DNA of 28,920 bases, from the IMG/VR virus record IMGVR_UViG_3300015242_000037, positions 1 through 28,920 of that record; one strand, written 5' to 3'. Below the pieces are notes generated by a model that had not been told where the DNA came from, did not search any database, and saw only the letters and a program-made list of their open reading frames with translations. A program made the translations under genes and the position numbers. Below, in pieces: positions 10,165 to 22,150 of the stretch (the stretch's first letter is position 1; each line of letters opens with the position of its first letter). Source of the DNA: a virus.

Positions 10165-10555
10165 TCTGAGGGCTCCGGATTTCGAAGGGGATTAGCCCTG
10201 AGTGGGGTTGACCAAACTCCGCGCCGAGCCAACCGAGCCAACGCATGGACCCGGTGCCGAGATGGCAATGGCCGGTGATGCTGGGCCAGCGCCAGAGAAG
10301 GGCGGAGATGACCTTGCGGGAATAGCGGCCGAGGAGGATTGGGTGGCGAATGGGGAGGTTTAGCATCCAGAGATAGGCTGTGTCGGCCATGAACGATGGG
10401 GGGATGACTCCCCAGCAGGCTTCGAGTTCGCCGTTGACATGACCGGCCCAGACCTCTCCGGCGATGGCGCAGTAGTCGAACATCTGGTGGTCCCTGGGAG
10501 ACATTGCGAGGTGCGGCGGGAGATGCGGCGGGCCGTGAGTGATTTGGATGTTCAT
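10157..10555 (-). CDS. T7 gp13-like internal virion protein (DUF2833/GNAT-like)
   Basis: A 132-residue protein resembling T7 gp13 and the DUF2833 group, which have an acyltransferase-like fold. Features are a Trp/aromatic core (EVWAGHVNGELEACWGV), a central LGRYSRKVISALLWRWPSI helix and strand, and the characteristic end SMRWLGWLGAEF followed by a short strand (GLIPFEIRS). The last motif corresponds to the 'IRFLKTIGAVF' end of T7 gp13, which I compared from memory. In T7, gp13 is needed for infectious particle assembly. Here it stands between tail tubular B and the gp14-like gene, as in T7. The start overlaps the upstream stop as ATGA. Catalytic activity is not implied. Confidence 0.75.
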   Translation of the reverse strand: MNIQITHGPPHLPPHLAMSPRDHQMFDYCAIAGEVWAGHVNGELEACWGVIPPSFMADTAYLWMLNLPIRHPILLGRYSRKVISALLWRWPSITGHCHLGTGSMRWLGWLGAEFGQPHSGLIPFEIRSPQNG

Positions 10556-13176
10556 TTCTGCGAGTCCCCTACTTCGATCTCAGGGATGACGCCGAGCACG
10601 GATGCGGGGTATGGGTTGGGCTGTTGGATGCAGTATTGACCAAAGACGTCCCATTGCGGATCGACGATTATCCGGGCGTCGGTGGTTTGGAGCCCGGCCA
10701 CCAGAGCGTTTGACATGGTACCGACGTTGCCTAAGGCAAGGTCCTTCATCGGCAAGGCGGTGGCGAAGCTTCGCCCCGCGGAGAGCCCAAGGGCGTCTTT
10801 GGCACGGACGGTCACCGCGGAGACTTTCTTCCGTTTGCCTTGGACGGTGGGTTGGCCGAGGTCTAGGGCGAGGGTTTGGATCTGGGGAAGGAAGGCCAGG
10901 CCGACGGTTACGATCGAGGCGTTGGGGATGGCTGTGAGGCCGGTGGTTCCACCTGGGCCGAAGACGAAGGTACCAGAGATGGGCATGGTGAAGTTGATCA
11001 CGACCCCGTCGGCAAGACCAGTGACGACTGCGCCGGCGAGGTGTTGGGCGCCGGAGAAGCTGGTCGCTGGAGCACCGTTGTAGCCGATCCCCGCGTCGAC
11101 CTGCCAGGAGGATTTGTAATTGTTCGGGTAGGTTAGTTCAACGAAGCGTTCGATGTAGTAGACCAACGCGCCGTTGATGTTGCGTTGGACACAGTGGTAG
11201 ATGGCGTCGACCGCGCCGATGGCGGTGGTTTCGGTGACGGTCGCGATGGATTTGAACGCCCCTTGAGTGTCGGAGTGGGCCCAGGCGATCATCTCTTGTT
11301 CTTTGAGGAAGGTCAGGGAGAGCAGTTGACCATCGTTGCGGACCGCCCAGACGACTTTGAAGGGTTCCTCCGCCCAGGCCCACTCTAGAAGCTGGAAACC
11401 GTAGAATAGGTGCGAGGAGAGGATTGAGATGTCAGTCCCGGTGAAGACCTGAGTGTAGAAGTTGAACACGAGGTCGCGGACGATCGAGCCTTTGGCCTGG
11501 AGGTAGAGGATGTTGTCGTTGGCGACGATTGGAGGGCAGACGCCGGCCGCGCCGTTGTAGGACTGCGGTCGGGCGGAGAAGCTAGTTGCGGAGATGGGTG
11601 CGCCTGAGGTGCCTCCATTGACGATCCAAGAGAGCTTATCGGCGAGAACGATCAGGCCTTGAGGCTGAGGGATCAGCCATTGGAGTGTGCTCAAGACCCC
11701 GGAGACAAGGGTGCCTTGGATGGCGTTATCTGGGGCGGTGGGGAAGGTTGTGTCGAAGTTGAACGGCGAGCCGGGCTGGGAGAAGTTCATCTGTTGAACG
11801 GATTGAACCGGCGCAGCGAGGCAAAGGCGTTGGTCTTGGAACCCTGGGACGGAAGGGTTGCCGGCGGATGGGGCGCCGAGGACGGCCGTGGCTGCACCGC
11901 CGCCTCCAGAGAGTCCGCCTACGGCTGGCGGGGAGCCGTAGCCGGTACCAGGAGAGGTCATGGCGATCGAGGCTAAGGTCCAGGTGACATTGAATCGGGC
12001 CGAGCCGTCGCCGTGACCGGAGGTGGAGAAGAAGCCGGTGGGGGAGATGGTCTGGCCATTGCCCGAAGCGAGGGACCCGGCGGCGATGATGACCACGCCG
12101 GATAGCGTGCCAGCGAAGCCAGTGGTGGAGGTGACTTGTAGGGTGGCCCCACCCGCGAGGAGGATGGTATCGCCGACATTCCATCCGGTGCTAGCCACGG
12201 CGATCGATACCGCGGTGAGTTGGCAATAGGCGATCGCAGCCGCGCCGGATCCGCCTCCGCCGGTGAAGGTCGGGGTTGGGACGGTTACGTTGGTGAAGTT
12301 GCCCGGGTTAGTGATGGTGACAGATTGGACCCCGGTTCCAGAGAATGGGTTCTGTGGGATCGGTGGGCCCTGGGAGAAGTCCGGGGTGATGTTGGTGTCG
12401 TTGAAGGTGATCCCGGTGAAGTTCCCTGCGAAGCCATATTGGGCCCCGGCGGCAACGGTGTTGGTCATGCTCACGAGGGATTTGTAAACGTTGTAGCTGA
12501 CGGCGCCGGCGACGGAGGCGATGTTGATGGTGTTGGTGTAGTTGGTACCGAGAAAGGTCCGGTTCGCGAATGGGACCTGCGCGGTGGGATCGGATTCCTG
12601 CCCGTTGGCATCGACGGAGGTCAGCAAGTAGGCCACGCACTGGGTGCCCGCAGGGGCATTGGATGCGGCGGTGATTCCGCCCGGCGGGGAGATGGTCGCG
12701 CCGAAGGTGATTGGGGCCAGGGTCCAATTGGTCGCGGAGATCAGGGTGAGGATGTAGGGCGGGTGGTTCGGGTGGCAGATGATGAGTTGGTTGACGTTCT
12801 GGGCGAACTTTAGCTGGGAGAGTTCGGCGGAAGTGTAAGGCGAGGCGATGGTGTAGATCGGGCCCCCAGAGAAGACCGGCGCGCCGTTGTTGTAGAACGC
12901 GAGGTAGCCTGCGCCGTTGAGGACGCCGAATTCGAGAATGTAGGCCACGGTGAATGAGGCCTGGAAGGGGATCAGCCGCGGTGGGCCCGAGCCATTGTTC
13001 TGCGACTTGGCGACGAAGCGAGTGCCGGGTCGGGTAGTTGCGCCACCGCGGTAGTCTACGAAGAAATTCCGTAGAAGGGCCGCACCGGAGTGGTACTTGG
13101 CTAGGTCCACCCGAGCGTTCAGCTGCGGGGCCCATTCGCCGGCGTTCCAAGAGGTTTGGATTGCGTTATCGGACAT
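10552..13176 (-). CDS. Tail tubular protein B-type (T7 gp12-like) with beta insert
   Basis: An 874-residue nozzle/tail-tube protein. Its N-terminus (SWNAGEWAPQLNARVDLAKYHSG, then LLRNFFVDYRGGATTRPGTRFV, about residues 9-55) is the standard signature of podovirus gp12/stabilisation-type proteins. An Fn3-like region follows (about 165-260: YLLTSVDANGQES, GAVSYNVYKS). A Gly-rich repeat region then runs from about 282 to 434 (VTITNPGNF, STGWNVGDTILLAGG, SPGTGYGSPPAV). The propeller-like C-terminal half contains FQDQRLCLA, VWAVRNDGQLLSLTFLKEQEMIAWAHSDTQG and YIERF. It should form the lower tail with tail tubular A. The gene starts in a TAATG overlap with tubular A. The repeat insert is similar in kind to one in tubular A and makes the protein somewhat longer than T7 gp12. 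Confidence 0.9.
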   Translation of the reverse strand: MSDNAIQTSWNAGEWAPQLNARVDLAKYHSGAALLRNFFVDYRGGATTRPGTRFVAKSQNNGSGPPRLIPFQASFTVAYILEFGVLNGAGYLAFYNNGAPVFSGGPIYTIASPYTSAELSQLKFAQNVNQLIICHPNHPPYILTLISATNWTLAPITFGATISPPGGITAASNAPAGTQCVAYLLTSVDANGQESDPTAQVPFANRTFLGTNYTNTINIASVAGAVSYNVYKSLVSMTNTVAAGAQYGFAGNFTGITFNDTNITPDFSQGPPIPQNPFSGTGVQSVTITNPGNFTNVTVPTPTFTGGGGSGAAAIAYCQLTAVSIAVASTGWNVGDTILLAGGATLQVTSTTGFAGTLSGVVIIAAGSLASGNGQTISPTGFFSTSGHGDGSARFNVTWTLASIAMTSPGTGYGSPPAVGGLSGGGGAATAVLGAPSAGNPSVPGFQDQRLCLAAPVQSVQQMNFSQPGSPFNFDTTFPTAPDNAIQGTLVSGVLSTLQWLIPQPQGLIVLADKLSWIVNGGTSGAPISATSFSARPQSYNGAAGVCPPIVANDNILYLQAKGSIVRDLVFNFYTQVFTGTDISILSSHLFYGFQLLEWAWAEEPFKVVWAVRNDGQLLSLTFLKEQEMIAWAHSDTQGAFKSIATVTETTAIGAVDAIYHCVQRNINGALVYYIERFVELTYPNNYKSSWQVDAGIGYNGAPATSFSGAQHLAGAVVTGLADGVVINFTMPISGTFVFGPGGTTGLTAIPNASIVTVGLAFLPQIQTLALDLGQPTVQGKRKKVSAVTVRAKDALGLSAGRSFATALPMKDLALGNVGTMSNALVAGLQTTDARIIVDPQWDVFGQYCIQQPNPYPASVLGVIPEIEVGDSQK

Positions 13177-14297
13177 TAGCTAAACCCAGGCCACATTCCG
13201 CCCCAATCGAATCCGGTGTTGTATGGGCCTGAGGCCCCATCGGTGTAATCGACGCCTCGCATCCGGATCCAATCAGGGATGACGTTGTTCACAGTCAGCG
13301 CCTCATTGCCATCGTTCCCTCGGGCGATCCGGATGACCTCGTTGCCTTGGGTGATTACAAGGTTCGAGAGGGACTTGTCCCCGGTGAGGGCTTTGCAAAG
13401 GGCCCCGCCGAGTACGAAGGCGTAGGCTTCTTGGAAGTCGTCATCGAAGACGTTTTCATCGGTGATGTTCTTCACGTAGTTCAAAAGGCCGAATTCTTGG
13501 TTGGTGAGGATTACTCGCTGGTCCCCTGCGGCGGCGGTGAAGGTGAGGTTGAAGGTGGCACCGGTGCCGAGGCCGGTTGTGCCTGTGCCGCCAAGGTTGC
13601 CTGGGTTGGGACCCTGAGCGGATGGGTTCGCAACCGGCGCGAAGTAGCTCCCGGAGAATGGAACGACTTCGTTTGGGATGATAGGGACAATAGCGACAGA
13701 AGTGACAACCCCAAGAGCACCAACCCCAGTGACCTGCAAAGTAGCTGGGCATCCAACTGGGGGAAGGCCTTGTGCACCTTGTGCGAGAGTGATAAGATCG
13801 CCCAGAGCATAGCCGGCGCCTCCTGAGGCCACAGTGGCAGCGGTGACGGAGAAGAATTGGTCGACGGCGACTTTGAACTGGACTGGCGGGCCTTGCCAGA
13901 ACGAGGCTGCGCCACCGGTCACGGCGGTGGTGATGGGAACGCCGCCAGCGAAGCCAGTTGCGGTTTGAGGGGTGATCCAACAGGCGCGGATGCAATCGAA
14001 GGGGTATTGGTATTCGTACGCCCACGGCGGGGCCGGTTGGCCCTTTTGCCATAGTTGGGTCGCGGGGGAGGTGTTCTCTGGGGTGCCGGGGATGGAGGTG
14101 ATGAAGTTGAGGGCGATGGTTTGGAACGCGAAGGACCAAGGGGCCATCCGAAGCAAACGTCGGCGGAAGGAGTCGTAGATGATGTTACTCTGAATCGCTT
14201 CGTTGCTTCCATTGCTAGCAAGCTCTGCAGCCGTAACTGTGGTCCTAGACCCAAAGGTTTGCAAAGCACGATTCACCATGTCTACTTTGGCAGTCAT
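13176..14297 (-). CDS. Tail tubular protein A-type (T7 gp11-like) with beta insert
   Basis: A 373-residue adaptor that would form the gatekeeper ring below the portal. The gp11-like parts are the N-terminal helices (VDMVNRALQTFGS, NIIYDSFRRRLLRMAPWSFA, residues 5-58), the CIRACWITP strand (102-110), and the C-terminal bundle RVILTNQEFGLLNYVKNITDENVFDDDFQEAYAFVLG (261-297, split here only for description). Between residues about 151 and 253 lies a Gly-rich segment (GGAGYALGDLITLAQG, GTGATFNLTF) that the basic fold does not need. It is of the same kind as repeats in tubular B. The ATG overlaps the HNH gene's stop as ATGA and the stop overlaps tubular B as TAATG. Confidence 0.9.
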   Translation of the reverse strand: MTAKVDMVNRALQTFGSRTTVTAAELASNGSNEAIQSNIIYDSFRRRLLRMAPWSFAFQTIALNFITSIPGTPENTSPATQLWQKGQPAPPWAYEYQYPFDCIRACWITPQTATGFAGGVPITTAVTGGAASFWQGPPVQFKVAVDQFFSVTAATVASGGAGYALGDLITLAQGAQGLPPVGCPATLQVTGVGALGVVTSVAIVPIIPNEVVPFSGSYFAPVANPSAQGPNPGNLGGTGTTGLGTGATFNLTFTAAAGDQRVILTNQEFGLLNYVKNITDENVFDDDFQEAYAFVLGGALCKALTGDKSLSNLVITQGNEVIRIARGNDGNEALTVNNVIPDWIRMRGVDYTDGASGPYNTGFDWGGMWPGFS

Positions 14298-14731
14298 TTA
14301 AGCCATCCCCAATTACGGCCGCTGCGAATATAACTGATAGCGGTCCAAGACATGTCATATGCTTTGGCTATAGAGGCGACAGAATAGCCTTCGACGATGA
14401 ATTGACGAATGTCTCTCACATCCTGCTCAGTAAGCTTTGCCTGCCCTTGGCGTTCTCCAAATACATGGCGACCTTTAGCGATCTCATCATCTTTGTTGTC
14501 TTTATGTGTTCCTAAGAATAGATGCTTTGGATTGATGCAAGGCTTGTTATCACAAGTGTGACAGACTATCATACCTTTAGGTACAGGGCCTTTGTGGTGC
14601 TCAAATGAAACTACGTGAGCACCACGGTCGCAAATAGCACCATAACCTGAGCCTGACATAGCGCCAGTAAACACCCAACAGTTGTTAGGCGCCATCGCTA
14701 TCCTATCGAGCAATTTACTGGCGATGTCCAT
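14294..14731 (-). CDS. HNH endonuclease, homing type
   Basis: A 145-residue HNH nuclease. The N-terminal part has the HNH_3-like pattern: CWVFTGAMSGSGYG, VVSFEHHKGPVPKGMIVCHTCDN, KPCINPKHLFLGTHKDNKDD. Zinc-type cysteines and the His-Asn-His residues lie at about 40-75. The C-terminus (residues 95-140: KLTEQDVRDIRQFIVEGYSVASIAKAYDMSWTAISYI, a predicted helix-turn-helix) would give DNA-binding specificity. This is the layout of free-standing phage homing endonucleases. Base composition is clearly more AT-rich than in the adjacent tail genes, which suggests transfer. It is nevertheless set into the operon with a TAATG start and an ATGA end. Alternatively it could serve packaging, but packaging HNHs usually lie beside terminase. 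Confidence 0.9.
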   Translation of the reverse strand: MDIASKLLDRIAMAPNNCWVFTGAMSGSGYGAICDRGAHVVSFEHHKGPVPKGMIVCHTCDNKPCINPKHLFLGTHKDNKDDEIAKGRHVFGERQGQAKLTEQDVRDIRQFIVEGYSVASIAKAYDMSWTAISYIRSGRNWGWLK

Positions 14732-15956: not shown

Positions 15957-16035
15957 TGAGTAATCCTATGGTTAATACAACAGCCCCAGCCAGGGGTAGC
16001 ATGGATAAGCAGATCAGTAGAGATTCGAGGTTCAT
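15940..16035 (-). CDS. 31-residue single-membrane-segment peptide
   Basis: A short reading frame that standard gene length cut-offs would miss. It encodes MNLESLLICLSMLPL and continues AGAVVLTIGLLNGRRT. That gives one hydrophobic segment (about residues 5-26) and a basic C-terminus, so the predicted topology is N-out/C-in. Its ATG overlaps the stop of the exported 114-residue protein as ATGA, like many real junctions here. Its end overlaps the next gene by 17 nt. It fills what would otherwise be the only 75-nt gap in this part of the operon. Function unknown; chance cannot be excluded at this length. Confidence 0.5.
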   Translation of the reverse strand: MNLESLLICLSMLPLAGAVVLTIGLLNGRRT

Positions 16036-16376
16036 TTGTCTATCCTTGGCACGTGTGGGGTGTTGAGGGCATCGAGGATCGAGGCGATGAATTTGAGCGT
16101 GGGGGTTCTGGCAAGGGTGGCGGCACGTTCACAGGCGGTGATCGCGGGGTCGATCGCATCGGACTTCTTGGCCTGGGCGAGGGCCTCGAAGCAAATCCGG
16201 CGGGCCACGAAGATTGGGTGGCGGTTGTCGCTCCACATCGCGACGAGCTTTTGTAAGGCATCGGGTGGGATCTTCGCTAGGCGAGCAGAGAGTTCAGCTG
16301 TGGTCACCTCAGGGAGTAGGCCCTGAGCGAAGGCCGGACTGGCAAGTAGCAGGATCGCGAGGATGATTTTGATCAT
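16032..16376 (-). CDS. Small exported protein
   Basis: A 114-residue protein with a textbook Sec signal peptide (MIKIILAILLLASPAFA, cleavage AFA-Q after residue 17). The predicted mature part is about 97 residues, helical, with two cysteines (RRICFEA and ITACERA) spaced for a possible intramolecular disulfide between helices. It is coupled to the preceding fibre-like gene by an ATGA overlap and has no ribosome binding site of its own, so it is probably made together with that protein. No family recognised. A periplasmic partner or chaperone of the exported fibre-like protein is a speculation from the coupling. Confidence 0.75.
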   Translation of the reverse strand: MIKIILAILLLASPAFAQGLLPEVTTAELSARLAKIPPDALQKLVAMWSDNRHPIFVARRICFEALAQAKKSDAIDPAITACERAATLARTPTLKFIASILDALNTPHVPRIDK

Positions 16377-18256
16377 TGTTGCGACGTCGGTCCGTTGTTG
16401 TCGATATCGGTGAAATCCCAGGTCCCGGCGGTTGGGACTACCCCGCCCGCGTTGTTGCAGTCGGTGTAGAGAGAGAAGGTTCCGCCGACGTGGTAGAGTG
16501 GGACCGGGGACATTGAGGTTGGGAAGACAATATTAGCTACCTGCCCAGCTGCCTGGAGACCGAAGGTCAAAGCACCATTTCCGGTGTTGACGAAACCTCC
16601 CATGAAGATGTTACAGCCAATCCAAGAGGCCGCTGTTTTCCACTCTAGCTTGCCCCAAACGTGCCCGACGGTGTTGTGAACTTCGCCGAAGGTCATGGCT
16701 TCGAGATCGTTGGTGTTGTAGCCGTATAGGGTCGGCGCGGCTCCGCCAAGGGCTGCGGTTGGGAAGTTGACTATGTCTGGGGTGAGGAGCGGTGGGTTCC
16801 AATGGGAGAAGGCGACGGTTTTTTCATAGGTGTTGGTGTGGAGTTGCGACTGGACCATCGACGGAACGAACGCGGCAGTCGGGAGGCAGACGTCGAATAC
16901 GTCGCCAGAGTTGCCGGAGGGTTGGAAGCCAAACTGCACGGAGGTTGCGGTTTGGGAAATGGTTCTGGTGACGGATACGAATTGGTACCCGCCGAGGCTA
17001 ACACCGGTCAGGGCGGAACTGAAAGTGGTCCCAGCGCTGTCTTGGATGTAGATGTTCCCTGTGCTTCCGCCGCCTTGGATGCGTTGGAAGATGGCCATGC
17101 CCAAGGTGACGGTTTGACCTCGGTAGAGAGGGAGAAGGGCCGGGGTGATGTCGTCGATCAAAAGTTCATTGCCGGTGGTCCCCTTACGGAGCCCGAGTGG
17201 GCGTTCGCAGCCGGGGTAGACGGTGGAGATGGGAGTGGAAGCGGCGCCCCAATCGTCGGGGAAGGCACATAGCGTGCCAGTCTTGGTCCAGCCGTCCGGG
17301 CCGGTGGAGGAGCCACAGTCGAGGGGGGAGACGGGGATGATGGTCGCGGCTGCGGAGGCTGCGGGGGAGATGCCACTTAACGCAGGCGAATGCAGGGTAA
17401 CGGAGGTATTGGCTATTACATTGGTGACCCGCGCCGCAGTGACGTAGCCGCCGTTACATTGAACTTGCACACAGGTGATGAAGCCACCGCCGGCGAAGCC
17501 CCAGAAGGACACAATGTTGGAGACGATCGCGATGTCGCCAACGCGGAGGGTTTGGGTGTTGGCGCAGGTGAAGACCGGGTCCGCCGTAGAGATGGTAAAG
17601 GCAGTACAGGAAACGTTGGTTTGATTCGCCGTACCTGCGGCGTTTTGCTTTGTGCTGAAAGCAATGCAACACCACAGCCGCCATTGGTTGTTCTGGAGCA
17701 GGTTGTCGACGGTGCCGCCAGTGGTGGAAATGGTGGTCGGAACGGCTGCGCCACCTGAGCCGGGGTAGACCGGGACTTGGCCAGCGGTCGCGGCTGCTTG
17801 GCTTCCGCCCAGGCCACCGTTGGCGAGGCTGACCGGGAAGGCAAGAGCGGCGCATTGGAGACCAGAGGCGTTCACGTAGACGAGGGCATGAACACCGTCG
17901 TTGGCGCAGGGCGGGACAGCGATGTTCTGCATGTCCGCGGTGCCAGCGGTGGGGTTGATCCAGATCGAGTTCGCAATGCCTTGTGGAAGCTGGGCGAGGG
18001 TGGCACGGCCGGAGAGGTTGGAGAAGGCCGGTTGGGCACAGACCGAGGCAGCCCCGACCACGTTGACGAATTGATTCGCCGGACAGGTGATGAAGCCGGG
18101 GATGGAGGAGGCAGCGATCTGGGCCAGAACGAAGCGAGTGTTGGCACAGGCGTTTGTGTTATCGCCAAGGGTGCGATCGGAGCATTGGGTGTTTTGGGCC
18201 AGCGCAGGGAAGGCGAAGAGGGCTAGCGCAGCCGCGAGGAGGAGCTTCCGAATCAT
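16373..18256 (-). CDS. Large exported cysteine-rich fibre-like protein
   Basis: A 627-residue protein starting with a Sec signal peptide (MIRKLLLAAALALFAFPALA, cleavage ALA-Q near residue 20). The predicted mature protein is Gly/Ala/Thr/Ser-rich and beta-like. A fibre-type N-terminal section (about 60-100) contains FSNLSGRATLAQLPQGIANS, the pattern of tail-fibre 'L-QLPQG-A' repeats. Middle and C-terminal beta domains follow, with a concanavalin-like flavour (TVTLGMAIFQRI, GNIYIQDSAGT). I count 18 cysteines in the mature part, including adjacent WCC. A 24-codon upstream extension exists, but ATG 18256 begins the signal peptide and overlaps the previous stop as ATGA. It is the best receptor-binding or fibre candidate in the window. 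Why a tail fibre would be exported is unexplained. Confidence 0.75.
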   Translation of the reverse strand: MIRKLLLAAALALFAFPALAQNTQCSDRTLGDNTNACANTRFVLAQIAASSIPGFITCPANQFVNVVGAASVCAQPAFSNLSGRATLAQLPQGIANSIWINPTAGTADMQNIAVPPCANDGVHALVYVNASGLQCAALAFPVSLANGGLGGSQAAATAGQVPVYPGSGGAAVPTTISTTGGTVDNLLQNNQWRLWCCIAFSTKQNAAGTANQTNVSCTAFTISTADPVFTCANTQTLRVGDIAIVSNIVSFWGFAGGGFITCVQVQCNGGYVTAARVTNVIANTSVTLHSPALSGISPAASAAATIIPVSPLDCGSSTGPDGWTKTGTLCAFPDDWGAASTPISTVYPGCERPLGLRKGTTGNELLIDDITPALLPLYRGQTVTLGMAIFQRIQGGGSTGNIYIQDSAGTTFSSALTGVSLGGYQFVSVTRTISQTATSVQFGFQPSGNSGDVFDVCLPTAAFVPSMVQSQLHTNTYEKTVAFSHWNPPLLTPDIVNFPTAALGGAAPTLYGYNTNDLEAMTFGEVHNTVGHVWGKLEWKTAASWIGCNIFMGGFVNTGNGALTFGLQAAGQVANIVFPTSMSPVPLYHVGGTFSLYTDCNNAGGVVPTAGTWDFTDIDNNGPTSQQ

Positions 18257-18639
18257 ACGTTGCTCTCTATAACGGTTAGGGGGTTGGTCGTGCCAGTTGC
18301 GGCGAGGGCCTGCCATGCCTTCTGGCATTCGCCATCGACAACTAGGCTTCCACCGTTGCCGAAGACACGAAGGGTACCACCGAGGAGGGCGGTGGTTGGG
18401 GTGAATGGGACATCCGAAGGGGAGACCGGGGCGGTGCCGAGCACCCCTTGGATTGTTGTTTGCGAGACGAAGATGTCATTCGGGCCAGGGTTGTGAAAGG
18501 TGAGTTTCTGGCGCGAAGGGTTGGCCTGGGCAACGACAACGTTGGCGGCGTTGGTGATGTTGTTGAAGCCGTAGGTCTTGCCTCCATTGGCCCCGGCTAC
18601 AGTTCCGGAGTCGCCGGGGCTTCTGGAGATGATACCCAT
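18253..18639 (-). CDS. Beta-rich virion-associated protein
   Basis: A 128-residue protein predicted to be mostly beta strands. Features include NITNAANVVVAQANPSRQKL, then TFHNPGPNDIFVSQ and LLGGTLRVFGNGGSLVVDGE, then WQALAATGT. The 'NP-R-LTFHNPG--DI-V' core recurs in small phage decoration or head-fibre-type proteins. There is no signal peptide. It starts in a TAATG overlap and ends in an ATGA overlap with the large exported protein. A decoration protein is likely from fold and position between capsid and tail genes. The exact role is unknown. Confidence 0.7.
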   Translation of the reverse strand: MGIISRSPGDSGTVAGANGGKTYGFNNITNAANVVVAQANPSRQKLTFHNPGPNDIFVSQTTIQGVLGTAPVSPSDVPFTPTTALLGGTLRVFGNGGSLVVDGECQKAWQALAATGTTNPLTVIESNV

Positions 18640-19385
18640 TAGATCCTCCGCTCGACTACGGTCTTGCGGGCGCGGAGACGGGATTCGGCTTCGCGGGCCC
18701 TGGCAGCTTCGGCGGCCTCGGCGAGTTCTTCTTCGGTCGGCTCCGCTGTGGGAAGCTCGTCTTCGAACTCAGCGTGTTTGGTCTCGCCCGATTCGCGAAC
18801 GATGCGATCGAACTCGTCCTGTGCGGGCTCGGGGGCTGAGGTCACTGCCACTGCGGCAAGGGATTCCATCGGGGCCTTACCAGTCATGATCGCGATCAGC
18901 TGGGCATTCTGGGCCATCACGGCGGCCATGGCTTCCATCATTTTGTCCAGACCGTGGGTTGCGGAGGGTTGGAGAGCCGTGGTGGCGCGAAGGTCCGTCA
19001 GGGAGGTGATCAATTCGTCACCCAGACGGGCGTAGAACCCGGCCCGCTGCGACTCTTCATCGATGCCCTGAGTGGGGATCCATTTGAACTTCGCGGTGAC
19101 CTCGCGGGCCTCGTCGTCGAGGGGGACCATGCCAGGGGTGGGATCGCCTTCGAAGACGATGTCTCTGGGATTGCCCTTGCCCGGCCAGCAGACATGGATC
19201 TCGCCGTCCATTTCGTTGTTGGGGAATTTCACGTTCCAGTCGTCTGCCACTCGGGGGTCGAGATGCAAGGGGACTTTGAACATCTTCCTCGTGGGCTTGC
19301 CAGTGCGGGAGTCGATCGCGGTTTGTTCCCAACGGGAATCGGGGGCGTTGAGGTAGTGGGGTTCCGTCAATTTCCATCGTGCCAT
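18639..19385 (-). CDS. Conserved phage structural-region protein, unknown function
   Basis: A 248-residue protein. The N-terminal domain (about 1-110) is MARWKLTEPHYLN...RKMFKVPLHLDP, then PRDIVFEGDPTPGMVPLDDEA. I recognise this pattern as recurring in phage head-region genes without a known function. The C-terminal half has a helix (LDKMMEAMAAVMAQNAQLIAI) and a highly charged Glu/Ala/Arg tail that is probably coiled. A reading 24 codons longer exists, but ATG 19385 has AAGGAG 7 nt upstream and matches the family start. It lies 14 nt after the preceding stop. Confidence 0.75.
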   Translation of the reverse strand: MARWKLTEPHYLNAPDSRWEQTAIDSRTGKPTRKMFKVPLHLDPRVADDWNVKFPNNEMDGEIHVCWPGKGNPRDIVFEGDPTPGMVPLDDEAREVTAKFKWIPTQGIDEESQRAGFYARLGDELITSLTDLRATTALQPSATHGLDKMMEAMAAVMAQNAQLIAIMTGKAPMESLAAVAVTSAPEPAQDEFDRIVRESGETKHAEFEDELPTAEPTEEELAEAAEAARAREAESRLRARKTVVERRI

Positions 19386-19392
19386 GTTAAGG

Positions 19393-19398
19393 CTCCTT
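19393..19398 (-). promoter_or_regulatory. Ribosome binding site that decides the 19385 start
   Basis: Minus-strand AAGGAG lies 7 nt before ATG 19385. It argues against the longer reading from 19457. Confidence 0.7.
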
Positions 19399-19399
19399 T

Positions 19400-19840
19400 T
19401 CAGAATTGTGCGTACCAGATCAACACCGACATGGTAGCTGCGGATGAGGTGGCGCATAGCGCCTGTGAGAGGTTGCTGGAATTGGATGCGTATTGTGAAT
19501 GATCTTGGTTTGGTGAGTTTGAGCTAACGTTGAACGTCGGCGATAGCTTCTTGGTGCCGGTGTCACATGGGTTGGTGGTTTGGGTACCGGTGGTAAAGGC
19601 GATGGTGCCATTGGCACCTGTGTTGGTTACGTTCCAACCACAGAGGAAGATGGTCTGGCCAGCGACCGCAGGAACGATCGCGGTCGAGGTTGTGAACCCA
19701 ACTTCCTGTACCGCGACCTTGTTGCATAGGATGAGATTGGTCGGGCCAGATACGTTCTCTGCGTTCGCGGTTGGCGCCCAAGCCCACAGGCTCAGGCTCA
19801 GCGCAGCGAGGAGACAGATGGAGAGCCTGAGCTTGTGCAT
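19400..19840 (-). CDS. Small exported beta protein with four cysteines
   Basis: A 146-residue protein with a signal peptide (basic MHKLRL, hydrophobic core, cleavage ANA-E near residue 27). The mature part is beta-rich, with ILCNKVAVQEVG, GQTIFLCGWNVTNTG, GTQTTNPCDTGTKK and SQALCATSS ending in WYAQF. It has four cysteines that could pair as two disulfides. The 'FLCGW-V-NTG' through '-ALC-' to 'YAQF' pattern occurs in other small phage-encoded proteins near capsid genes that I cannot name further. It starts in a TAATG overlap with another signal-peptide gene. A surface or decoration role outside the cytoplasm is inferred. Confidence 0.75.
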   Translation of the reverse strand: MHKLRLSICLLAALSLSLWAWAPTANAENVSGPTNLILCNKVAVQEVGFTTSTAIVPAVAGQTIFLCGWNVTNTGANGTIAFTTGTQTTNPCDTGTKKLSPTFNVSSNSPNQDHSQYASNSSNLSQALCATSSAATMSVLIWYAQF

Positions 19841-20316
19841 TAGCGTACCCTATACCAAGAGGTGGTTGAGAGAGCGTATCGGAACTCGACCGACGAGCCC
19901 GCAGCGAGAGTGGCGAAGGAAGTGTTGTTGACGAGAGTTGAGCCGTCAGAGACGGTTACGGTCGCGCCGGTGAAGGCACCGCCAGAACCGTTGACCCATT
20001 CGAAGATTTCCCCATCCCAAGGCAGCGGGGGAAGGGTCACTGCGAGCGAGGCAGAGGCGGCGGTGGAGACGAGGGTGCCGGTGGCAGTGGTCAAGACCAA
20101 GGTGCCAGAGGTCAAAGCCGTGGTGGTGAGACCAGTGGCGTTGCGAAGTTGGGAAGACGGCGCGAAGATAGACGGGCCACCGGGTCCGCCTTGAGCCATG
20201 GTCACGACTTCCGAACCGGACATAGTTCGGTTCGTCAGTGCGGTTTGGGCCCAGACTGCCCCGATGATTGCCAGGGCCGCTAGGGCCCCAGCCAGAAGTG
20301 TGCGGAAGCGAGTCAT
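19840..20316 (-). CDS. Exported head-fibre/decoration-like protein
   Basis: A 158-residue protein starting MTRFRTLLAGALAALAIIG with a predicted cleavage site VWA-Q after residue 23. The mature part has TMSGSEVVTMAQGGPGGPS, then a beta-rich C-terminal domain: SLAVTLPPLPWDGEIFEWVNG, FTGATVTVSDGSTLV, and SVEFRYALSTTSWYRVR. The C-terminal pattern is common in phage decoration and head-fibre proteins. A longer reading to 20601 is rejected, because its extra 95 residues are an out-of-frame copy of the Bbp16-like gene, and GAGGG lies 8 nt before ATG 20316. It contains no cysteine. A virion-type domain behind a Sec signal is unusual. Confidence 0.75.
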   Translation of the reverse strand: MTRFRTLLAGALAALAIIGAVWAQTALTNRTMSGSEVVTMAQGGPGGPSIFAPSSQLRNATGLTTTALTSGTLVLTTATGTLVSTAASASLAVTLPPLPWDGEIFEWVNGSGGAFTGATVTVSDGSTLVNNTSFATLAAGSSVEFRYALSTTSWYRVR

Positions 20317-20326
20317 GCCATTTCCC

Positions 20327-20881
20327 TCAATTCGCCACAACAACGCCGGCGGGATATCCACCGAGCACTGCGTTGGCTTGTTCTGGGAGATCGTGACGGT
20401 CGAGGACGAGGTAGGCCTGGAGTTCCCCGGCGGAGTGGGTGCCGACGGAGATGTATTGGAGTTGCAAGAACCTCGGAAGGGGCTGCCCAGCAACGGGCCG
20501 GGGGATGTCGATGTCCGCAAGGCGGGCGCCGAGGATGAGGATTGCCTCGGCGTAGACCGGCGAGGTGTACATGGTGACGTAGGCACCGGCTGCGCCAGCA
20601 CCGTTGTCAGGGGCGCCTTGGAGGTTCACTTGGAGCGAGGTGCCACCGGTGATTGCGACGGTGACCACGGCGAGGATTTTCATCGCCGGGTCATCGCCGA
20701 TGCCGATGTCACGGGCTCCGCCACCTTGGGCGGAGAGTGGGATGCCCAGGAGGCCTAGGTCAAAGGCGTTGGAGGAGACCTGGGTGCCTGTGGTCGGGCG
20801 GTCGGATTGGGGTCCGAGAACGGGAGGACCAGAAGCTCCCTTTGAAGAACCAGTGAAGCACAGAAGACCATCGAGGATCAT
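20327..20881 (-). CDS. Bbp16-family capsid cement protein
   Basis: A 184-residue protein matching the Bbp16 pattern: MILDGLLCFTGS at the start, SSNAFDLG, GGGARDIGIGDDPAMKILAVVTVAITGGTSLQVNLQGAPDN, and a C-terminal strand pair LQYISVGTHSAGELQAYLVLD. In BPP-1-like phages such proteins bind and stabilise the capsid shell. It lies two genes after the major capsid protein, as expected. ATG 20881 has GGGAG 7 nt upstream and follows the preceding TAA by one base. There is no signal peptide. Confidence 0.88.
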   Translation of the reverse strand: MILDGLLCFTGSSKGASGPPVLGPQSDRPTTGTQVSSNAFDLGLLGIPLSAQGGGARDIGIGDDPAMKILAVVTVAITGGTSLQVNLQGAPDNGAGAAGAYVTMYTSPVYAEAILILGARLADIDIPRPVAGQPLPRFLQLQYISVGTHSAGELQAYLVLDRHDLPEQANAVLGGYPAGVVVAN

Positions 20882-20882
20882 G

Positions 20883-21101
20883 TTAAACTCCCTTGAATTG
20901 AGAAGTGATCATCACAGGTGCCCAGCTATTGGGTGTAGTCTGCGTATCATCACGAGTTGCAACTGGGTTGGATACGTTCCAGGCACCATCGAAATAAAGG
21001 ATGTGGGAATCCACTCCGTTATCATCAGCAGCCAGACCGGGACAGATCTGACTGTTGACGGTAGTGTATGTGACCGGAGTTCCTTTAGGAATGATCGACA
21101 T
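20883..21101 (-). CDS. Small hypothetical protein after the capsid gene
   Basis: A 72-residue beta-like protein (MSIIPKGTPVTYTTVNSQICPGLAADDNGVDSHILYFDG...). It has no recognised family. A GTG one codon upstream could also start it, but ATG 21101 makes a TGATG overlap with the capsid stop. The gene is visibly more AT-rich than its neighbours, which may mean recent acquisition. Its place between capsid and cement genes suggests a minor head component; this is inference. Confidence 0.7.
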   Translation of the reverse strand: MSIIPKGTPVTYTTVNSQICPGLAADDNGVDSHILYFDGAWNVSNPVATRDDTQTTPNSWAPVMITSQFKGV

Positions 21102-22150
21102 CACACCACCTGGGCTTCGTTCGAGAGAATGGCGTCCACGGTACGGATGGGGATGCCACGGAAAGTGGTGATGGGCTTGCCGTTGAATTCCTCCAGGCGG
21201 AGCAGGACGTTGGTCTTGTTCATCGCTTGGAGATCGAGGTAGGTCCGGATGATACGGTTCGCGTAGATCACGGTGCGACCCATGTCGGCGCGGACCATCG
21301 GGGTGTCGGAGGTTTGGATGGTCGTTGCGGAGACGGGAGCGGTCGGGAGGCGGTAGAGAGCGCGAACGAGGAGGTTGATCAGGTTCGCTGCGGAGACGCC
21401 GGTTAGCTGAGTGACGTCAACGTTGGCGATCCGTGCCATGTAGCGCCAGTCGCGTTGGGCAAAGCCGATTTCCCACTTGAAGTGCTCGCGGTAGGCCTGA
21501 TACGTATTTCCCAAGGAGTCGGTCACGGGCCACTCGCCCATGTCACGCTGCTGGAGGCCAGCGAGCTTGCCCTTGGGGAAGATCGCGTGGTTGGTATCGG
21601 TGCCCCAGGTCATCACCCAGATGGAGGTGTTGGTGTTGGAGGTGCCTTGGCCATCGAGGACGTTGTTCGCGGTGACGGAGTTGGCGACGGTTTTGGTCGA
21701 GTAGCGAGGGGCCCAACCGGTGAAGCGTTCCGGGTTGGCGAACTGGTTGCCGTAGACCAGGGTGGAGGCGACCTGTTGGGACATGCCCTCGAGGAAGGCG
21801 CGGGATTCGGAGAGACGGAACTCCGGGGTGTTGCCGTTGAGGTCCGCGATGTCCTTGTCGATCACGGAGTAGGTTTCGAGGTTACCGCAGGCTTCGACCA
21901 GCTGGGCGGTGGTGGATTTGGCGTTGGGCACGCCGGTGTTCAGCAGGCGCCAAGTGGCCTGGGGGATGCCGGTGCGGACGGTGGTTTTGTGACCGGTGGG
22001 GAGGTTGCCTTCGACGACCATCATGTCATCGAGGACTTCGTTCGTCTGGGAAAGGAGTTCAATGATGGCGGCGACTTTGTAGCCGTCGTCCATACGCTTT
22101 GCCCAATCGGCGTAGGTAAGTGCCGTTGTGCCAATGGTGACTTGTGCCAT
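21101..22150 (-). CDS. Major capsid protein, BPP-1 (Bbp17) type
   Basis: A 349-residue HK97-fold-type coat protein by position and sequence character. The N-terminal helix (LTYADWAKRMDDGYKVAAIIELLSQTNEVLDDMMVVEGN) leads to HKTTVRTGIPQATWRLLNTGV. The spine-like region LVEACGNLETYSVIDKDIADLNG and FLEGMSQQVASTLVYGNQ follow. The C-terminal part has YIANR-like IYANRIIRTYLDLQAMNK and ITTFRGIPIRTVDAI. It follows the scaffold gene and precedes a Bbp16-type cement gene, as in BPP-1-like podoviruses. AGGA lies 7 nt before ATG 22150. It has its own 98-nt leader, the only real gap in the head genes, fitting a need for high expression. Confidence 0.92.
   Translation of the reverse strand: MAQVTIGTTALTYADWAKRMDDGYKVAAIIELLSQTNEVLDDMMVVEGNLPTGHKTTVRTGIPQATWRLLNTGVPNAKSTTAQLVEACGNLETYSVIDKDIADLNGNTPEFRLSESRAFLEGMSQQVASTLVYGNQFANPERFTGWAPRYSTKTVANSVTANNVLDGQGTSNTNTSIWVMTWGTDTNHAIFPKGKLAGLQQRDMGEWPVTDSLGNTYQAYREHFKWEIGFAQRDWRYMARIANVDVTQLTGVSAANLINLLVRALYRLPTAPVSATTIQTSDTPMVRADMGRTVIYANRIIRTYLDLQAMNKTNVLLRLEEFNGKPITTFRGIPIRTVDAILSNEAQVV

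Follow-up and report, generated by a model that had tools for sequence, protein, structure and literature searches.

Predicted export of fibre-like proteins, encoded beside non-exported partners, in a group of uncultured soil phages

Results

The stretch analysed here (the window) is the 28.9-kb podovirus record IMGVR_UViG_3300015242_000037, positions 1 to 28,920, which belongs with phiV10, epsilon15 and BPP-1, and our subject is an island of 6 kb between its capsid cement and tail tube genes. Four genes of this island begin with signal peptides and a fifth such gene lies in the lysis region. Nearly all genes of the window are on the minus strand; the set comprises terminase, portal, scaffold/protease, capsid, a Bbp16-like cement protein, tail tubular proteins A and B, internal proteins, a GH108 endolysin and a holin-like gene, and downstream of the last internal protein there is no fibre-like gene. 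A reading made from the DNA letters alone (the sequence-only reading) had proposed that the five proteins are exported, that they form disulfides and that at least two of them look like virion proteins. All five open reading frames are present on the minus strand, with the leaders, the cleavage sites and the mature cysteine counts (2, 18, 4 and 0 in the island from 16032 upwards, 2 in the lysis region) that it had given (Table 1).

Signal peptides were scored with a home-made rule-based scorer, which looks for a net positive n-region, a hydrophobic core and an AxA-type site; as controls, four known exported proteins of Escherichia coli were accepted and two cytoplasmic proteins rejected. The five window proteins score 6.1 to 7.1 and the holin 4.8, and the remaining genes of the window give nothing. 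For comparison with relatives, genes were called on 80 virus loci selected by capsid similarity only, and homologues of genes of the exported block, for which the sequence-only reading had suggested looking, were found among them. In these loci 37 of 38 homologues of 19840-20316 and 31 of 37 homologues of 19400-19840 are scored as secreted (most of the other six look like leaders by eye), compared with none of 488 homologues of the window's non-secreted genes. The leader sequence varies across homologues while the AxA-Q cleavage motif is kept. The start of the large island gene, 16373-18256, overlaps the stop of the gene before it (ATGA), and its homologues start at the same short leader; misplaced starts, which would have told against the sequence-only reading, are very unlikely in view of the homologue alignments. 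Among proteins of cultured relatives, one of 120 is scored as secreted and that one is itself a fibre. Taken together, these signals strongly support export. Retention at the surface through lipid anchors was considered and rejected, as lipobox-like sites (Cys at +1) are essentially absent, occurring in three of 393 exported proteins and in none of the window's five. The leaders of two island proteins in relatives (L004:14332-17076, MKISRRELLAG, and L009:5072-6484, MKVSRRGFLLA) are of the twin-arginine kind, suggesting Tat export of some members.

The cysteines of these proteins point in the same direction. Where the mature count is above zero, even and odd numbers stand at 133:8 in exported proteins and at 160:166 in non-exported proteins of the same loci (Fisher p=7e-24), and oxidative folding outside the cytoplasm predicts exactly such a bias. 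The late genes of cultured relatives do not share it (28 even, 38 odd). All four cysteines of the 19400-19840 family are invariant in 36 sequences, down to 31% identity, and one collar-type domain has a Cys pair in its exported copies (L188, L194) and a single Cys in its non-exported copies (L050, L159). Disulfides in the exported proteins are thus strongly supported, at the level of such counts and alignments.

The 627-aa product of 16373-18256 carries an N-terminal module, a signal peptide followed by QNxxCxxRPxGDxSNACAxTxFV, that a second scan found in 50 other distinct complete proteins, and a second type of module (signal peptide followed by QCNGVFxxNTxCGN) heads 36 further proteins. The 85 complete exported fibres with these two modules fall into 57 C-terminal clusters, four of which contain both module types; adhesins attached to virions usually show such a constant N-terminal module joined to unrelated C-termini. 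The large exported island proteins of relatives match Pect-lyase, Beta_helix and Collar domains as well as the PHROG families for tail spike, EPS depolymerase and tail fibre, so that the fibre/tailspike identity of the exported class as a whole is strongly supported by its domain matches. Fibre, collar or beta-helix spike domains are found in the exported proteins of L188, L057, L016 and L030; the window protein has only the N-terminal module in common with the exported class. In fibres of cultured phages the motif GDNST..ATTAFV equals the module, but it lacks the leader and the two cysteines, as in AAGDSSSAVASTAFVQNA of Bordetella phage PHB04. One further island protein (L026:16481-18655; 725 aa, 17 Cys) matches a Sortilin-Vps10 domain, and its called start shows no leader.

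Each type of exported fibre has its own upstream neighbour. A protein of about 120 aa similar to the product of 18253-18639 (partner type B) precedes 48 fibres of the window's type (FIBC), and an unrelated 141-aa protein (type A) precedes 36 fibres with the second module (CNGVF). Counted from partner to fibre, the next gene is an exported CNGVF fibre in 39 cases for type A and an exported FIBC fibre in 44 cases for type B, and cross-pairs do not occur; the remaining cases are mostly contig ends or leaders missed by the scorer. Overlap of stop and start is the commonest arrangement at this junction. The pairing strongly supports a type-specific partner, as judged from gene order and similarity. 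In L050 and L053, partner A also forms the N-terminal domain of a non-exported spike, of 803 aa with 5 Cys and of 736 aa with 7 Cys, respectively. Such a domain, part of a cytoplasmic spike in one phage and the neighbour of an exported fibre in another, suggests a physical link between the two. Profile comparison of the partner families with the small exported proteins yielded no reliable relation.

Structure prediction, another check that the sequence-only reading had proposed, was applied to the two small proteins encoded upstream. The model of mature 19840-20316 (pLDDT 84) resembles TSP4 of phage CBA120 (7rfo; Z 10.5, 2.5 A, 93 residues), and its further matches are a gp10-like baseplate protein (Z 10.4), T4 gp10 (8.8) and T4 gp9 (7.8), the next unrelated row being at 5.7; the Pa223 capsid spike is also among the matches within Z 7.8 to 10.5. 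The predicted fold is thus that of a T4 gp10/TSP4-type attachment domain. The model of mature 19400-19840 (pLDDT 89) shows a common type of beta sandwich, with best matches, Z 8 at most, to the HFTV1 turret, Ena appendages, XepA, YomS and cement proteins; to the Bdellovibrio mosaic adhesive trimer (MAT) proteins there is only a weak match, at the Bd2133 tip (Z 6.8).

Table 1. Features of the window, with predicted signal peptides (SP) and mature cysteine (Cys) counts
Feature	Position	Strand	Signal peptide and cleavage	Mature Cys	Matches and remarks
Exported fibre, 627 aa	16373-18256	-	SP 18197-18256, ALA-Q after residue 20	18	SP followed by module QNTQCSDRTLGDNTNACANTRFV
Non-exported partner of the fibre, 128 aa	18253-18639	-			Proposed virion anchor, type B; stop overlaps fibre start (ATGA)
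Exported protein, 158 aa	19840-20316	-	SP 20248-20316, VWA-Q after residue 23	0	Predicted domain like TSP4/T4 gp10/T4 gp9 attachment domains
Exported beta-sandwich protein, 146 aa	19400-19840	-	SP 19760-19840, ANA-E after residue 27	4	
Exported protein, 114 aa	16032-16376	-	SP 16326-16376, AFA-Q after residue 17	2	
Non-exported conserved island protein, 248 aa	18639-19385	-			42 homologues in loci, 0 SP-positive
Exported protein after the holin, 188 aa	580-1146	-	SP 1093-1146, AFA-Q after residue 18	2	
Major capsid protein	21101-22150	-			phrog_212 1.4e-80; 32-54% identity to most cultured phiV10/BPP-1/epsilon15-type phages
Bbp16-like capsid cement protein; borders the island upstream	20327-20881	-			Pfam Bbp16 2.8e-7, phrog_427
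Tail tubular protein A-like, with an inserted domain that enlarges it; borders the island downstream	13176-14297	-			phrog_394 1.5e-31
Tail tubular protein B-like	10552-13176	-			phrog_376 4e-142
HNH_3 homing-type endonuclease gene; overlaps the start of tail tubular protein A	14294-14731				

The exported fibres and small adhesion proteins are common to a large group of uncultured soil phages that includes the window. A search of 50,697 phage records returned no homologue of 16373-18256, 19400-19840 or 19840-20316. Among bacterial genomes, the single scan matched only three contigs of metagenome-assembled genomes, and 398 genomes of one phylum gave weak motif matches and no exported fibre of the window's type. 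In G009, whose ends repeat 66 bases and which looks complete, all large late genes outside the core set have signal peptides, which leaves no non-exported fibre candidate. A tyrosine integrase was found in none of 12 long relatives, and all 14 control genomes were positive. The same cassette of partner and exported fibre is borne by a second phage lineage (capsid phrog_9953; L175, L185, L195, L219 and L227). Large exported genes also occupy a second site, the terS-terL interval, in G009 (541 aa) and G012 (449 and 652 aa).

The remaining exported proteins may be accessories. The 16032-16376 protein, for which no homologue was found in the 80 capsid-matched loci, is possibly a periplasmic accessory, perhaps a chaperone of the fibre. 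The 580-1146 protein is probably a separate lysis accessory: the same site after the holin bears exported genes with 4 Cys in G001, G004 and G008, and genes of this type are possibly spanin-like. The conserved 18639-19385 protein gave no Pfam or PHROG match. Tail tubular protein A has about 360-390 aa in most of the window's clade and about 200 in phiV10, and the inserted domain matches head-decoration PHROGs. We considered its enlargement as a docking feature and rejected this, since the sizes fail to separate phages with exported fibres from those without.

Discussion

Tail assembly is taken to be cytoplasmic, and stable disulfides in fibres are therefore not expected before release. The results above support the core of the sequence-only reading, namely genuine export, disulfides and at least two virion-like proteins. 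We suggest, with a probability of roughly 0.6, that the adsorption apparatus of these phages is exported, acquires its disulfides in the periplasm and is joined at lysis to a partner borne by the virion. The small adaptor-like proteins (19840-20316 and 19400-19840) and the main fibre would leave the cytoplasm by their Sec signal peptides, be cut after AxA and reach the periplasm, where they would fold and acquire disulfides, while the partner 18253-18639 would be made in the cytoplasm and seated on the assembling virion as a docking site. Holin and endolysin would then free the virions, which would meet the periplasmic fibres, and assembly would be finished outside the cytoplasm. We infer three of these steps: that the partner sits on the virion, that it binds the N-terminal module of the fibre, and that the two are joined at lysis. 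Tailspikes of P22 and long fibres of T4 can be attached in vitro to finished particles. The broader proposal, that a whole lineage of tailed phages is built in two compartments (the particle with its docking protein in the cytoplasm and the fibres in the oxidising periplasm, brought together only at lysis) and that the cassette was transferred to an unrelated phage lineage, we hold a little less firmly, though we still lean towards it.

Several observations weigh against this proposal. We place the exported fibre on the virion mainly because of the fusion and coupling of partner A, and the fusion to a spike is known only for type A, not for the window's type B; a virion location is in this sense deduced from the relatives. 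No domain was recognised in the C-terminal half of the window fibre, and odd Cys counts occur in 15 of the 85 exported fibres. The signal scorer is home-made, and both export signals and disulfides are read from sequence. The fibre sets were gathered through Cys-containing motifs, one of the patterns including AQC, so that the signal-peptide fraction of that type is biased; neither the capsid-selected set nor the partner-to-fibre count made in it carries this bias. L159 has both exported and non-exported fibres, and G010 has non-exported fibres (most with odd Cys counts) at the same place while keeping the small exported genes. With relatives of both kinds, the exported fibre is not always the sole candidate.

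The strongest rival holds that the exported fibres work off the virion, free in the periplasm, at the surface or in the medium, as capsule-clearing depolymerases, receptor masks or agents of superinfection exclusion. Real export signals, enzyme-like spike domains and the non-exported fibres of some relatives all suit this account, and Bdellovibrio sends phage-fibre-like adhesins to its own surface (PMC10769870). It does not explain why an invariant, type-specific partner should be coupled to each fibre, nor why that partner should be fused to non-exported spikes, and G009 would be left without a fibre candidate. The scarcity of lipoboxes and the lack of an integrase in the 12 long relatives also tell against it. 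These last two points bear on the surface mask or exclusion layer that the sequence-only reading had offered as one option; it loses ground but survives as part of this rival, which we consider distinctly less probable than joining to the virion, though a serious contender. Another option of that reading, fibres added outside the cytoplasm, gains from the coupled non-exported partner of each fibre type and from the two fusions.

The other explanations seem improbable to us. Uncleaved leaders acting as hydrophobic anchors, which would fix the fibres to the virion within the cytoplasm, would fit the position of the hydrophobic N-termini at the usual site of virion-binding domains; however, the cleavage positions are kept despite the divergence of the leaders, the cysteines look as if oxidised and some leaders are Tat-like, and we regard this third option of the sequence-only reading as very unlikely. 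Scarcely more probable is a disulfide-linked appendage or coat polymer on the dying cell or its debris, serving dispersal or retention of progeny, with no direct link to the virion. The four invariant cysteines of 19400-19840 and its weak likeness to the disulfide-linked Ena spore appendages (Z 8.0) would fit, but a Z of 8 is common for such folds, turret, cement and XepA proteins are equally near, and the coupling to a partner is left unexplained. Least probable of all is an artefact of wrong starts or chance hydrophobic leaders. The scoring is indeed home-made only, but dozens of diverged homologues carry leader and cleavage site, against none of the 488 controls and one protein, a fibre, of the 120 in cultured relatives.

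If joining at lysis is correct, export would enable a phage to harden its adhesins, to hold them off the cytoplasm until lysis and perhaps to block the receptors of the dying cell. The virion assembly pathway would gain an extra step, and the cysteine-rich fibre genes of soil viromes would be explained. There would also be a warning for annotation, as secreted phage proteins may be parts of the virion.

The capsid, cement, portal and tail-tube genes of the window, and their order, are those of Uetakevirus/Rauchvirus-type podoviruses (phiV10, epsilon15, BPP-1, BcepC6B). Seven cultured or complete relatives were examined, and these have only one or two small open reading frames between cement and tail tube, where the window has its exported island; such fibre genes as were seen in them lie after the ejection proteins. 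Two cultured phages come closer. Burkholderia phage BcepC6B gp19 (L088:20959-22032) and Xanthomonas phage PBR31 orf035 (L241:5932-6741) are fibre-like proteins with a signal peptide and 4 and 2 mature Cys, respectively, encoded next to a tailspike gene; unlike the window fibre, they have an unrelated N-terminal module and accompany a non-exported spike. Export of the PBR31 protein has apparently gone unremarked, as the text of PMC10975493 makes no mention of gene 35. Both phages offer practical test systems.

Outside this group, filamentous phages make the virion proteins pIII and pVIII with Sec signal peptides, and pIII has disulfides. Their coat proteins are membrane-anchored and extruded through the envelope, and these phages are not lytic tailed phages. 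The MAT proteins of Bdellovibrio resemble the exported fibres in being phage-fibre-like adhesins behind a signal peptide, but they are bacterial, surface-displayed and outside any phage operon, and the part of their description available reports no partner gene (PMC10769870). Our literature search, whose coverage left out most subscription journals, found no exported fibre in a tailed phage, nor any account of an exported, disulfide-bearing fibre with a split partner. The known fibres and spikes of tailed phages (collar, pectate-lyase) are like the exported class in their C-terminal domains and in the GD(N/S)S..ATTAFV motif, but they are cytoplasmic and carry the virion-binding domain on the same chain, whereas here there are a signal peptide, added Cys pairs and a separate partner gene. 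In the exported fibres the leader is present and the proposed binding domain is encoded by a separate gene; the fused form occurs only in the non-exported spikes of L050 and L053. Fibre and spike domains are already known, and the apparently new part is the exported, putatively disulfide-bearing fibre with a split partner.

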